A stretch of DNA of 28,021 nt from Polyrhizophydium stewartii (Eukaryota; Chytridiomycota; Chytridiomycetes; Rhizophydiales): NCBI GenBank assembly GCA_027604665.1, contig JADGIZ010000084.1:1-28021 (forward strand), in the 5' to 3' direction. This document shows positions 61 through 18,992 of the stretch, piece by piece. How positions within the stretch are numbered: the first letter of the stretch is position 1; each line of letters starts with the position of its first letter. Both the position numbers and the translations under genes were made by a program. The notes below the pieces were generated by a model. The model did no database searches and was not told the DNA's origin. It was given only the letters and a program-made list of their open reading frames with translations.

Positions 61-3000
61 CCTGTGCTCAGGCCCTCGGTTCGCCCGATCCCGCGACTCG
101 CCAGTATGGACTCGCCTCGCTGTCCCCGGTCTTTCCAGGCCTCGCCTCTGCCGCCGCCAAGGATGCCGGCGCCCTCGGCCAGATCGTGCAGCGGTGCATC
201 CTTGTTCTCGAGCAGTCGACGCAAAGTTTTGCCATCATGTGGGTCGGCGGGTACCTCAAGAAACTCATCGCGACTCAGCAGTCACAAATTCCGCTGGCAG
301 ATCTCGTCGCCATCAGTGAGCTCGTCCCCGCCCGCCCTCAGCATGTGCACCGTCGCTGACTTGCCGCAAACAGACAACACCGTCATCCGGCGCATCTCGC
401 AGCCGTCTTTCTCGGGTGGAAGAGCCTCGCTCAACGTCCTCTGCAGTATCTCGGCCGCCGTCACCGTCCTTGGCTGGGGCCGCTCGGAGGAGGTTTTCGC
501 AAATGCACTCTTGCCGGTGTGTTGGATTCGCGACAGGGGGTCCGAGAAACCACGCAAGCGGACTCGCGGGCAGCTGACGCTGTTTGCGCAGTCCGACGGA
601 ACAAGCTACCCTCAGAACGCGTGGGTGCTACTGCTGCAAGCCGTCGTTCAGGAGATGAGCCAGGAAAAGTCGATTCTCAAGGGCTTCCCAAAACACCGCA
701 AGACAGGTGAGAGTGCCCTGTCCCTGACCGCATACTGCCTCTCGCTCTGACGCCTGTTCCGGCTGTAAACAGCGGTCAGCTTCCGGGATAGTCACCTGCT
801 CTCTATCTTTCGCGGAGGATCCCAGATGTTCCGAGACTCGGCCGCATCCGGTGAGGCATGCCCCGAACCGGAGGCTTACGTCGGTCGCTTCCGCCGACGC
901 CGCTGACTTGTCTGCGGATTCCCATAGGCACACTCGCTCAGCAGCCCTCATTCGCGCGCAACCTGCTCTTGCTGCTTATCGAGTGTCTGTCTTTTGACTT
1001 CATTGGCATCAACCCGGACGAGTCTTCCGACGACCAAGGCTCGGTGCACGTGAGAGCCTTGTTCTTACGCCGCCCTGCTGCAGATGCAAATGCAGCCGTG
1101 CTCACTCTCATGAACCGATTCGCAGATTCCAACAAATTGGAAAGAGGACATCCAAGACCAGATGTTTCTGAGCGTCCTGTGCAACTCGCTGATCAGCGTC
1201 CCGGACTGCCAGCCCGAGGTGACGCGGCTTGGCACTGATTCCGTAGTTCTTTCATGCAGTCCGGCTGACATTTGTTCATGGCTCGCACATGGCTCCGTAT
1301 TGGAATATCCTGCAGATCCTCGACACACTAGCGTCAATCTTTTGCACGAGGCGGTCTTTGTTCTCCGACTCGGAGCGCGAGCAGTTTACGGCCACCAACC
1401 TGCAAGTCCTGCGCGACATCCTCAACTTCTTTGACAGCCTTTCAGAGGACGGCCAACATAGTAAGCTTGTGGCTGCCGGCGTGGTCGCGTTTCCGCCAAG
1501 GCTTTCTGTGCTTACCATCGCAACGCCATGCGCACCCCAGGGCTTTACCGTCTCATCTCGCGCTTCCTATCAGTGTATTCGTCCGACGCGCTCAAGAGCG
1601 CAAACGGCGAGGAGTTCGTGCGGCTGTTTATGGCTCGCTCAGTATCCTCCATGTGCGCCACATAATATGCTGGCTGTTTTGTTCGCATACAGCTTTGATA
1701 CTAACTCGGCATCTTTGTGTAGCCCGGCTTGGCACGACGCCCAGATAATCCATATTGTGCAGGCATGGAATCGGCTCGTCGACTCGTCTGGTAGCGCGGC
1801 ATCCGATCTCGGCACAAAATATGGACCCTATGTTGTAGCGGTTGCCCAAGCTCTTATTCGGTTCGATGGGAGTGCGCTGGGTGTGGACTCGAGTCAACTG
1901 TCGCGTATTGGATGAGTCCTTTGGTTTGTTGACCAACCTTTGATCTCGCAGAGTTTGGCCGCGATTCCGAGGAGCTTCTCAGCCAAGTCCTCGACTCATG
2001 CGCGAACGTCATTCGCTTTGACTACGCCAACGTGGCAGACATGCTGAGCGAGCGCTTCAAGTCCTCGGCCAATGCATTCATCTCGGGAAGCCCTGGCCCA
2101 GAGCGCAGTGATTCAGCCGCACTTTCGTGCTCGTGGCCCACGCTTCTGATTGCCGCCGTCATTGGCGCACGGTAAGTTGGATTGTTCGCTTCCTGCGCCC
2201 CGACCGCTGTGCGAAGAAGCCGAATGTTAACTATCCGCATCTAGCGCCCCCTACCAGGTGAACTGCGTTTAAAATGACTCACGCCGAAGCTGATGGCGGC
2301 TCTACTCGGCATGTTGTGCTGATTGCCGACTGCACCGCCGAGCAGAGCACCGAAGAGCAAGACCAGATCGACGCTCGACTTGCAGCTCTCCTGTTTGAGG
2401 CGCGCAGATCGCGCTTGTGCTGGTGCATTTCATGCCAAGCTGACCATGGCAATCGCCGTACGATCCCAGCTATCAAGCATGGATCTGATTAATACAGCCA
2501 ATCGGGTAAGTGCGATTTTGCGACGTTCCATGCCGACCAGCACAGTAGTGGCTGGAGCTCTAGTCCCCATACTGACATGTGTTGGTGCAGGGCACGCTTT
2601 TTCGCGACGAGCTCGAGCTTAGCTTGATTTACTTTGCGCTTCAGTTCAAGCGCAGTTATCTCTGTATGTTGCAGACTCGAGCGTTTCGAGTGCCTCCACG
2701 TGTCTGCTGCTGACAAAGCACGACATACAAGGCGACACGGGCTCTCGCCGCGCGGCTCTATTTGAGACCGTCGCGCAGTACTGCAGCATCAGCAGCCAGG
2801 ATCAGGCGACGATCTCCATCTTTGACAAGCTGTGAGTCTCGGAAGCACGCGACCTTGGGCTGGGCAGCAGTCCAATCCCTGACCTTGCTTTCTCTACCAT
2901 GCTGGAAGTCTGGTCAATCTTCGCTTTGCGACATCGTCGCTCGTGCTCGAGAAGACAATGGAAGCCTTCACGGACTTCACAAGCGGGTGCGTGCGTGATC

Positions 3001-5157
3001 GCGATATCACATAGAGTACTGCGGAGCTTCACGTGCGATATTCAATGCTCATGGATCGCTATATTGGTTCGTTCTGCAATCCAGATCTGTCACGTCCAAG
3101 ATGCTCAAGAAGAGCCAGGTCATCATATTTCTTGTGCAGAACCATTCATCCGAACACTTTTCGCGGATAACGGACCAGAAGTTGCTTCAGCAGGTGTGCA
3201 CGGCGCATTCTCTCTTTGACCGTTGATTCGCACCAGCGATTTAAAGAGATTGCTGATCTGCGAGTCACCTTTCTCGTGCTGCAGTTCTTTGCAGGCATCA
3301 CCAAGCTGCTGATCCTCGAAAGCGACGAGTCGTTTGACAAGGAGCTCTACATTTTCCTGGCGCCGCTTCAGACCAACATCGAGCAGTACAAAGGCATGAG
3401 TGACTCGGAGCTGCTCGAGCCAGTAGTCCGCGCCGAAATATGCAAGCTTTTTCGGAAACTGAGGCAGGCACCAGTTGAGAGGCTGTGGGTGCGCCGCCTT
3501 GCTGGCTGACGCGCAAACGCTTCTCAGGGCCATCATGAGCGTCTTTGTCGCCAAAAAGCACTTCCAGCCGTTCTTTGAGTGGATATATCCTTTTCATTTG
3601 ACATGCTTGCATGCTCCGTGCCTTTGCCGCCTCTGCTGCGTTCCATGACCTCTGTGCACTATGCCGAATCTGCTGCTGTTTCAGCGCTTTGCGGTCCTCG
3701 CGCACAGCCTGGACGACAATGTTGCTGCCTTGCGCTTTTTCCACGAATTTGTCTGGAACAAGTCAGGCCGCCTCAACTTTGACGTCAACTCTGCGTCCGG
3801 GTAAGAACAGCGCTGCTTGGGTCGATTGTCATCGACGCTGCTCCCAGGATCGATTTGCTGACTCGCGCCGCCAGAGTTGTCATTTTTCGCGAGGTCAGCC
3901 AGGTTGCCAACGAGATAGGTGCGGCTCCAGTATCGCAGACATCAGGCACCTGCTTCAGCCCCGTCGGCTGACCGGTGCTTTCGCACCCTATATCAGGACT
4001 GGCCCTTATCAAGTCTGATCTCGCGTCAATCCCAGAGTCTCAGTACTGGCCCAAGGTGTTCAAGCGCATCTCCATCATCCTGTGCGCCATACGCTCTCTG
4101 ATATTGTGCCCGCATGCAACTGGCCCTGGCTCACACCACAAGCATAGCAACCTGCTCAAGAACATCCTCGGCGGGCGCTATGTGTGCTTTGGCGTCTTTG
4201 CGCTCTACAACGACCCTGTCCTTGCAAACACGCTTTCGGTTATGTTTGGCCTCTCGCGTTTCATCGAGGCCCGGTATCTGCTGGCGAGTCGGGTGCTCTT
4301 GTGCCCGGCATATACGGCCGCATTGGCTGACACGCTTTGTTCTTCAAACCACAAAGGAGTTTGACAAACTCGGGGCGGTCAGTGGCGGACGCAGTGCCGC
4401 AGCAACGTGCTCTCATCCGGACCGGATAAGTGCTGATTGAGGGCTGGCCACCTTGCAGGCGTTCCTTGGCGTCTGGGCAGTATTTACGGGCGAGCAGCTG
4501 ATGCTCGTTGAGGACCTTGACATCGAAACCTTTTCGCACGTGCTCGAGTGCTGCAACGTTGCTCTGCATTCGTCAGATATCCTTTTTCCTTGCGCTGCGA
4601 TGTTTGTGCTTGTCTCGCCGGCTGCGCGCCGTGCTCCGCTGCCCAAAGGCTGCGATACTTGACCTCTCTGCACACTCGCTCGTGTCCTCGCAGGCGTGCA
4701 CCATCATCGACAACATCTTCACGCACGTGTGCCAGCGTCACATTCGCGGCAAGGCACCTGACGTTATCTTTGCGCGCGTGCAGCAGACGGCGCACCACTG
4801 CCGCGCGCTGCTTGCGACGCTCTTTGACAAGCTGGTCAACGAGGATCCGCCGAATCAGTGGTCCATGACCCGCCCGCTGCTTCCGCTTGTGCTCCTGTTC
4901 TCGGACTTTTTCCAGAGCTACGTCGAGCAGCTGATTGCGGAGCAGCGGTCGCAGAACCAAGAAGCTTTTGGCAACGTGAGCGTGACTCGCGCAGTGCGAG
5001 CGACAGCGCAGTGTGCTGACTGGCGCGTCGGCAGGCGATCTTGTCTGTGATGGAGGGCGTGACGCTGTCGCTCGAAACGCGCAATCGCGATCGCTTTACG
5101 ACCAACGTCTCGCATGTGCGCCGCCGCATTCTGCTCGAGGCGAGCTCGCCGTCGTAG
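61..5157 (+). CDS. XPO7: Exportin-7 (RanBP16-type karyopherin-beta), 5' partial, 26 exons
   Basis: Nuclear export receptor that works with Ran-GTP. Conserved blocks run in family order: FDFIGINPDESSDD (about 990-1035), RRSLFSDSERE (1350), HSSEHFSRITDQ (3150), FFEWI (3570), GGRYVCFGVF (4170), NQWSMTRPLL (4850) and the C-terminal ETRNRDRFTTNVSHVRRR. The hand-built exons are 61-315, 374-516, 592-706, 773-850, 928-1049, 1126-1218, 1316-1460, 1541-1652, 1723-1904, 1952-2171, 2245-2257, 2346-2416, 2478-2505, 2591-2663, 2732-2831, 2909-2986, 3085-3193, 3237-3463, 3528-3584, 3660-3800, 3875-3918, 3997-4292, 4357-4377, 4459-4576, 4674-4975 and 5035-5157. All phases close. About 1,088 residues are visible, near the family length, and roughly the first 15 lie left of the window; position 59-60 looks like an acceptor. 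The least certain joints are 2417-2477 and 3464-3527. Two introns look U12-type (AT-AC). Identity is very likely; exact edges are inference. Confidence 0.9.
2245..2257 (+). other. 13-nt microexon in exportin-7
   Basis: The bases CGCCCCCTACCAG lie between an acceptor at 2243-2244 (preceded by GTTAACT) and a donor at 2258. They supply APYQ between VIGAR and STEEQDQID and fix the phase (2 in, 0 out). Animal XPO7 has a comparable GGR...EEQD segment here. Without this exon the flanking exons do not join in frame. Confidence 0.7.
3585..3659 (+). other. Candidate U12-type AT-AC intron 1 in exportin-7
   Basis: The intron begins ATATCCTTTT, the minor-spliceosome 5' consensus. It has TTCCATGAC at 3641-3649 (8 of 9 to the TTCCTTGAC branch consensus) and ends GCAC, with the branch A 11 nt before the last intron base. 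Removing 75 nt joins FFEWI to MPNLLLFQR in frame and restores the conserved block that ends GRLNFDV. The only nearby GT donor (3618) paired with the next AG (3694-3695) gives the wrong frame. Caveat: the join lacks a four-residue YPxY element found in relatives, and the donor could partly encode IYPF. Confidence 0.65.
4577..4673 (+). other. Candidate U12-type AT-AC intron 2 in exportin-7
   Basis: The intron begins ATATCCTTTTT, has ATACTTGAC at 4655-4663 (7 of 9 to the U12 branch consensus, branch A 11 nt before the end) and ends GCAC. Removing 97 nt joins ALHSSD to SLVSSQACTIID in phase, with the same residue spacing between the two aspartates as in animal XPO7. A GT-AG alternative (donor near 4606, acceptor near 4694) is in frame but adds three residues. 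Confidence 0.7.
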
Positions 5158-17856: not shown

Positions 17857-18043
17857 AGGCCTGCGTTGGAGCGACTCGGGCACAATGAATCGCAGCGCAA
17901 GTGCTCGATAAGCGTTTCTTGTTGTGCAGCGAGTGTGGTGTGTGACGGGGGAACGGCGAGTGAAGGGGCATGAAGCAGACGCAAGGCCGCCTGCTTCGAG
18001 AGGGAGGCGCAGCCGCGGCGCGGCGTCAAGCACCCAATCGTCC

Positions 18044-18992
18044 TCAGTCTTCCCTGACGACGCCGACCTGCGCTGGCCGCAGGACACGGTCGTGGATCTT
18101 GTAGCCGACCTTGGTGACCTGGAAGACGGTGCCCGGCTCCTTGCCGGGCATGGGCGCCTGGAACAGCGCCTGGTGGAGGTTGTGGTCAAACTTTTCGTTG
18201 ATGGGGTTGTATGCCTCGACGCCAAACTGCTTGAACGTCTTGAGCAGCTCCGCGCGGGTCATGGACACGCCCGTGTACAGGTTCTTGAGGTGCGCGTTGG
18301 ACGACGCCCCGGCGCGCTCGGCCTCGGGCACGGCGTCGAGGGCCATGGCGAGGATGTCGGCCGTGTTGAGCAGCTCCTTGGCAAACTTTTGGATCGCAAA
18401 CGTCTGCTTGTCCTCAATCTCCTTCCTGGTGCGCTGGCGCAGGTTCTCGGCGTCGGCGAGGGCGCGGCGGTACAGGCCCTGCGGGGGGAGCAGCAGCGTG
18501 AGCATGGCTGGCACCACGGGAGGCACAGGCGGGCCGATCCGGTGCGGCTGCCCGCAAGCAGGCGCTGCGATCGGCAACGGAGGGGGCACCTGGCTGACGC
18601 CGAGTGACGCTCGAAGAAAAGCTCGGAAGAGCTCGCTCGGCCTGGGGGAGCGGCGATCGCACGCCTGCGGCTCGCAAAAGGCACTTGGCACGCACCTGCA
18701 GATGCGAGATCTGCTTGTCCTTTTCCTCGAGCGTCTTCTTGAGGGCCTTGGCCGCATCCGCGGCGCCAGCGCCGGCGCCGGCGTCCGCAGCCTTGGCGTC
18801 GGCCTTGGTGTTATTGGCCTCCTCGCCGCCCGCGGCGGGCTTGGCCGCGTCAGAGGCGCCGTCCTGCTTGGCGTCGGCCGAGTACCAGCGCATGCTGGGT
18901 GCGGCCGCGCATGCGCGCGCGCGCAGCAGCGCGGCAGCGGGTGCCGGGGCGGCGCGGCGAGCAACTGTGCTGGCGAGCGAGCGGGCGATCAT
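18044..18992 (-). CDS. MGE1: Mitochondrial GrpE, nucleotide exchange factor of Hsp70
   Basis: Releases ADP from matrix Hsp70 (Ssc1) during protein import and folding. Two exons (18992-18696, 18478-18044) encode 243 residues. The start MIARSLASTVARRAAPAPAA is a typical matrix presequence, ending around RWYSADAK. An Ala/Lys/Glu low-complexity stretch leads to the coiled coil (KKTLEEKDKQISHLQ) and then the GrpE core: GLYRRALADAENLRQRTRKE, FAKELLNTADILAMAL, NPINEKFDHNLHQALF and the C-terminal signature GYKIHDRVLRPAQVGVV. The intron (217 nt) falls exactly between the coiled coil and the core. Length matches fungal Mge1. Convergent with CYC8, 187 bp between stops. Confidence 0.94.

Follow-up and report, generated by a model that had tools for sequence, protein, structure and literature searches.

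Probable U12-type AT-AC introns in the exportin-7 gene of the chytrid Polyrhizophydium stewartii

The exportin-7 gene and its probable AT-AC introns

Polyrhizophydium stewartii (Chytridiomycota, Rhizophydiales) is described in passages of PMC12204190 as a saprotroph related to Batrachochytrium. The window analysed here, a stretch of 28,021 nucleotides, is contig 84 of the genome that was searched (12.86 Mb in 690 contigs). It carries a PheRS gene, matched best, apart from its own database copy, by Batrachochytrium (73%), and an exportin-7 gene, of which we assembled a model by hand that spans 800 codons, stop included, in an unbroken frame. Additional exportin-7 exons lie upstream of 1316 inside the window. 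An earlier note on this DNA had identified the gene as exportin-7, and this is confirmed by homologues of the family and by a Pfam scan in which the product matches PF25795 TPR_XPO7 at E 1.1e-35. The product is closest in the database to P0121 (98% identity, alignment A1) and P0122, both of them P. stewartii models, followed by the proteins of Homolaphlyctis (68% identity) and then Entophlyctis and Batrachochytrium salamandrivorans. The 19 introns of the model comprise 16 GT-AG introns, one GC-AG intron and two AT-AC introns. The GC-AG intron at 2400-2469 (GCGCGC...CCCAG) is a tentative choice, with other in-frame options weighed by eye. The features are as follows.

1316-5157, forward strand: exportin-7, modelled part, 20 exons with 19 introns removed, open frame throughout
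3585-3659, forward strand: second predicted U12-type AT-AC intron of exportin-7, 75 nt, phase 2
3585-3595, forward strand: its 5' splice site, ATATCCTTTTC
3637-3640, forward strand: TGCG
3643-3649, forward strand: CCATGAC, putative branch motif with A at 3648
3658-3659, forward strand: AC at the intron end
4577-4673, forward strand: predicted U12-type AT-AC intron, 97 nt, phase 1
4577-4587, forward strand: its 5' splice site, ATATCCTTTTT, which fits U12-type (A/G)TATCCTTT
4651-4655, forward strand: upstream element TGCGA, just before the branch motif
4655-4663, forward strand: ATACTTGAC, containing the branch motif ACTTGAC (4657-4663), putative branch A at 4662
4672-4673, forward strand: 3' splice site AC, intron end GCAC

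The intron at 4577-4673 has the layout ATATCCTTTTT ... ATACTTGAC CTCTCTGCAC, its branch A lying 11 nt ahead of the end, and its ACTTGAC is one step off CCTTGAC and near the U12-type consensus TCCTTRAY. Splicing it out yields LHSSDSLVSSQACTIIDNIF, which aligns without gaps to Homolaphlyctis LHSSNGLVSSQACSTIDNIF, and the gap-free match across the junction reads HSSNGLVSSQACSTIDNIF. When all in-frame GT-AG, GC-AG and AT-AC choices with 5' sites at 4501-4650 and 3' ends up to about 4730 were enumerated (n = 43), the AT-AC intron scored best against Homolaphlyctis at 1916, a score equalled only by the same intron shifted by 2 nt, which gives an identical protein. The earlier note had proposed a U12-type AT-AC intron at exactly these coordinates, with a branch A 11 nt before a GCAC end and a gap-free fit to the XPO7 family after splicing, and each of these points holds, the last of them against Homolaphlyctis.

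Two GT-AG introns compete for the same stretch. Both public P. stewartii models use one at 4558-4648 (NAAILDLSAHSL), which is in frame and gives a product that matches P0121 and P0122, but it adds two residues, has weak-looking sites (AAC|GTTGCT and CCAAAG|), leaves the ATATCCTTTTT...AC pair unexplained and scores below the AT-AC intron against all seven homologues, for example 1884 versus 1916 for Homolaphlyctis and, more closely, 2005 versus 2007 for B. salamandrivorans; we consider it very improbable. Slightly less credible still is a GT-AG intron at 4606-4693, which the earlier note had named as the alternative. At 88 nt it is also in frame, but it removes SLVSSQ where Homolaphlyctis has GLVSSQ, and it scores lower than the AT-AC intron against Homolaphlyctis (1879) and five of the other six homologues, among them B. 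salamandrivorans (2004). The AT-AC intron outscores both GT-AG models for Physarum, a diatom, Coelomomyces and Fonticula. Only the annotated Entophlyctis protein favours 4606-4693, by 10 (1815 versus 1805), and this protein has HAADILF at the junction, which is the translation of GCA GCA GAT ATC CTT TT. The Entophlyctis annotation therefore probably reads into the same intron, which would account for the advantage of the GT-AG choice and would mean that the intron is conserved there. Judged by these signals and alignments, the AT-AC intron at 4577-4673 is very probably real.

The earlier note was right about this intron and its class but too modest in its count, as it overlooked a twin at 3585-3659. 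Here the layout is ATATCCTTTTC ... CCATGAC CTCTGTGCAC, with CCATGAC again one step off CCTTGAC. The two exportin-7 introns are identical in their first ten bases and, save for one, in their last fourteen, so that ATATCCTTTT and TGACCTCTsTGCAC are common to both. Removal of 3585-3659 joins FFEW-I-MPNLLLFQRF, of which the Homolaphlyctis counterpart is FFEWIMPHMFLFQR, reading FFEWIMPHMF, and with Homolaphlyctis as reference this intron ranks first among 25 in-frame choices (1916). Physarum gives it a score of 653, which six of the seven other printed choices exceed, the highest being a GC-AG intron at 679. The Physarum preference seems to reflect ATATATCCT, which can be read as IYP, present in Physarum. 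A read-through giving WIYP is thus favoured by Physarum but disfavoured by the WIMP of Homolaphlyctis, and it was rejected because the nearer relative was trusted.

Gene finders are often restricted to GT-AG and GC-AG introns. When the proteins P0121, P0122 and P0124-P0127 were compared with our model, P0121 and P0122 were found to splice both AT-AC sites otherwise: P0121 omits a stretch near 3585-3659 and uses GT-AG 4558-4648 at the other site. Three annotated B. salamandrivorans proteins are without sequence around either AT-AC site, as expected if gene finders are blind to such introns.

Recurrence of the intron class in the genome

The genome has 26 copies of ATATCCTTTTY and 9 of the reversed pattern, and for the shorter RTATCCTTT the counts are 113 and 63 (100 of the 113 listed); 101 distinct sites were classed from the loci listed. 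CCTTGAC follows at +45 to +180 in 11 of the 24 GC-rich ATATCCTTTTY sites versus 2.2% of random GC-rich windows (binomial 1e-12), and these 11 do not include the exportin-7 introns, which have ACTTGAC and CCATGAC as branch motifs. Two of 24 other GC-rich ATATCCTTT sites have the same motif over this distance, and none of 35 sites with a local GC below 45% does. For GT-AG minor introns the screen covered exact GTATCCTTT sites, and CCTTGAC followed at +45 to +180 in none of the 27 such sites listed (18 of them GC-rich).

By eye and by frame we accepted 18 introns, consisting of 16 of the 24 GC-rich ATATCCTTTTY sites, with related branch motifs allowed, and two loci (L075 and L088) with ATATCCTTTTG. 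Because acceptance relied on the 5' site and the branch motif, both are selected for in this set. All 18 are AT-AC introns, as seen with GT sites screened as exact GTATCCTTT. Positions 1-10 are identical throughout, where the search demanded positions 1-9 of every intron and position 10 of 16, so that the T at position 10 (18/18) is partly due to selection; position 11 is C in ten introns, T in six and G in two, again partly by search pattern. More independently of that selection, an AC end, picked by eye among nearby AC dinucleotides, restores an open frame in 17 of the 18, and phases 1, 2 and 0 are represented by 11, 5 and 2 introns. Among the 15 loci other than exportin-7 that were scanned, a Pfam domain spans the junction in eight: kinesin, WD40, syntaxin-6 N-terminal, Foie-gras_1 (L021, under its curated cut-off), exportin-5, IBN_N, Exo84 N-terminal and EAP30/Vps36. 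The net length difference is at most one residue in seven of these and more in kinesin. No Pfam domain was found across the junction in the other seven, namely L006, L011, L018, L019, L026, L075 and L025, in which a domain ends short. On sequence criteria, we recognise at least 17 apparently well-formed AT-AC introns in the genome.

The distance from branch A to intron end is 11-13 nt in 12 of the 18 introns. It is 23-61 nt in L010, L017, L019, L027 and L088, and these five may use other branch points. The locus L020 has ATATCCTTTTC and GCGAGACACCTTGAC, with the nearest AC 7 nt from the branch A; no AC end was found there that restores the frame, and the intron possibly uses another 3' end. 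Eight GC-rich ATATCCTTTTY sites (L003, L004, L005, L007, L009, L012, L015 and L016) showed no convincing intron and were excluded from the 18, and two further matches in AT-rich sequence also lie outside the set. AT-rich contigs (for example those of L002, L034, L053, L064 and L095, with a local GC of 19-45% in segments) stand beside GC-rich contigs in this assembly and are possibly transposon-rich or foreign DNA. LTR expansion in P. stewartii is reported in passages of PMC12204190.

A further element recurs upstream of the branch motif. Within the 14 nt before it, 13 of the 18 accepted introns have TGCG and nine have TGCGA, the latter at 1 to 4 nt from the motif, compared with 10.1% and 1.7% of random 14-mers from GC-rich loci. 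Among ordinary exportin-7 introns, TGCG was found in 1 of 13 and TGCGA in 0 of 13 in the 16 nt before the branch sites, after four further introns had been dropped for having no branch motif by the rule used. The resulting P values, 6e-10 for TGCG and 5e-12 for TGCGA against background and 0.0007 and 0.004 against ordinary introns, are optimistic because the motif was first noticed in these same introns. TGCG(A) may extend the branch signal in a lineage-specific way, and no description of it was found in the passages of the literature searched (mostly non-subscription articles, few preprints).

Minor-spliceosome components

The earlier note had proposed a search for the minor-spliceosome components, and of those sought U6atac was found, whereas U11, U12, U4atac and the U11-48K zinc finger were without a match. 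The U6atac gene lies at 18010-18156 on the minus strand of G000:C118 and is a full-length match at 35.5 bits (Rfam cut-off 33; E 2.1e-6). It is the one match in the genome above that cut-off, which none of 14 control genomes passed. The gene has the GAAAGGAGAGA core and six terminal T, and thus resembles Rfam RF00619 in its full length, its GAAAGGAGAGA box and its terminal T run. It differs in the flank, in which GAGGAAAGGA stands in place of the RF00619 consensus UaUGAAAGGA and allows an intron pyrimidine at position 11 to be paired. With ATATCCTTTTC this flank can pair over eight contiguous bases at -8.8 kcal/mol versus -7.1 for the Rfam consensus, and with TATCCTTTTC eight bases are pairable versus seven for the consensus flank. 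Introns with C at position 11 gain clearly from this flank, and those with T only slightly (-7.4 versus -7.1). Pairing is equal for GTATCC, and the lack of GT introns is therefore unexplained by pairing. The U6atac gene (minus strand, 1501-1647 of locus L028) adjoins an apparent MCM helicase gene, named by eye.

No Rfam match to U12 was obtained in the genome at E<=0.001 or E<=10, nor to U11 or U4atac at E<=5. These models are not tuned to chytrids and the assembly is fragmented (690 contigs); the 14 control genomes likewise stayed below the cut-offs, so that the U11, U12 and U4atac searches had no positive control. Candidates for U12 were also sought by pattern. ATGAGTAAGG occurs at four places, as often as its reversed control, and all four are without an Rfam match. 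TATGAGTAAGGA with one mismatch occurs at 19 places versus 15 for the reversed control, and no U12 was seen among the eight that were read (six regions covering seven places, plus one on C34). A site on C156 with TATGAGCAAGGA, the expected compensatory form, gave no U12 match, and Giardia U6 alone appeared there at E 2.8; the site was rejected. On the protein side, zf-U11-48K (PF05253, a 25-position model) had no match in the genome. A U11-35K RRM query returned 17 matches, of which the best two, at C346:6471-6671 and C662:7660-7845 (E ~1e-14), are the only ones to extend to the C terminus of the query; this is the pattern expected if U1-70K and U11-35K both exist, and the two loci are candidates for them.

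AT-AC introns of the U2 type exist but are rare. Excision of the exportin-7 introns by the major (U2) spliceosome, in a genome without any minor spliceosome, would agree with the missing Rfam matches to U11, U12 and U4atac, but a U6atac gene is present, and the long TATCCTTT 5' site and the CCTTGAC-like branch motif are of the minor type and recur together. We regard U2-only removal as highly unlikely, on a par with the GT-AG intron at 4606-4693.

Comparison with known minor introns and interpretation

The P. stewartii introns share the ATATCCTTT 5' site, a CCTTRAC-like branch motif and U6atac with the minor introns of animals, plants and early-diverging fungi, as well as a short branch-to-AC distance in most introns and an avoidance of phase 0. 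They differ from known minor introns in that 18 of 18 are AT-AC (with GT sites screened as exact GTATCCTTT), 18 of 18 have T at position 10 and 16 of 18 C or T at position 11 (both partly by selection), and 13 of 18 have TGCG just ahead of the branch motif. As a family these introns look unusually homogeneous in their recognition signals. The AT-AC share of minor introns is given as about 26% in human and 77% in Blastocystis in passages of PMC10639083, and as 13-26% in four plants in passages of PMC7367187. Other chytrids for which minor introns are reported, Spizellomyces and Neocallimastigomycetes, belong to the same phylum or to its close relatives. In the passages available, Rhizophagus, Basidiobolus, Spizellomyces and Neocallimastigomycetes are the fungi with minor introns according to PMC10639083, which mentions B. 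salamandrivorans in the legend of a figure and finds no convincing support for minor introns in Ascomycota and Basidiomycota, and PMC2846911 reports minor snRNAs in Chytridiomycota. Minor introns as a kind are thus already known in chytrids. The earlier note had held that an AT-AC intron would be notable in such a genome; the intron itself very probably stands, but its presence is less surprising because the host is a chytrid and minor introns or minor snRNAs have been published for others (PMC10639083, PMC2846911). No sequence consensus of chytrid minor introns was seen in the literature passages, and no description of P. stewartii minor introns was found in those searched (mostly non-subscription articles, few preprints).

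Taken together, it is highly likely that P. stewartii has a working minor spliceosome that excises 4577-4673 and its twin 3585-3659 as U12-type AT-AC introns, a reading drawn from genomic sequence. We infer that U11 and then U6atac would pair with ATATCCTTTTY, that the U12 snRNP would pair with CCTTGAC (ACTTGAC and CCATGAC in exportin-7) leaving the branch A bulged, and that the AC about 11 nt beyond the branch would serve as the 3' end. On this reading, a minor spliceosome can be traced in a saprotroph closely related to Batrachochytrium.

A more far-reaching proposal, which we offer tentatively and hold to be less likely than not, is that the lineage retains a minor spliceosome with AT-AC introns exclusively, a U6atac that has changed in step with a lengthened 5' site, and a bipartite branch signal, CTGCG(A) a few bases before CCTTGAC, read by a partner not known from other organisms. 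Such a partner could be an extended, diverged U12 missed by Rfam, or a protein. A possibly all-AT-AC set of minor introns with an extended branch signal would open the recognition of intron ends and branch points to U12 covariation tests. The public gene models of this fungus are indicated to mis-splice such introns, by which the predicted exportin-7 is altered at two places.
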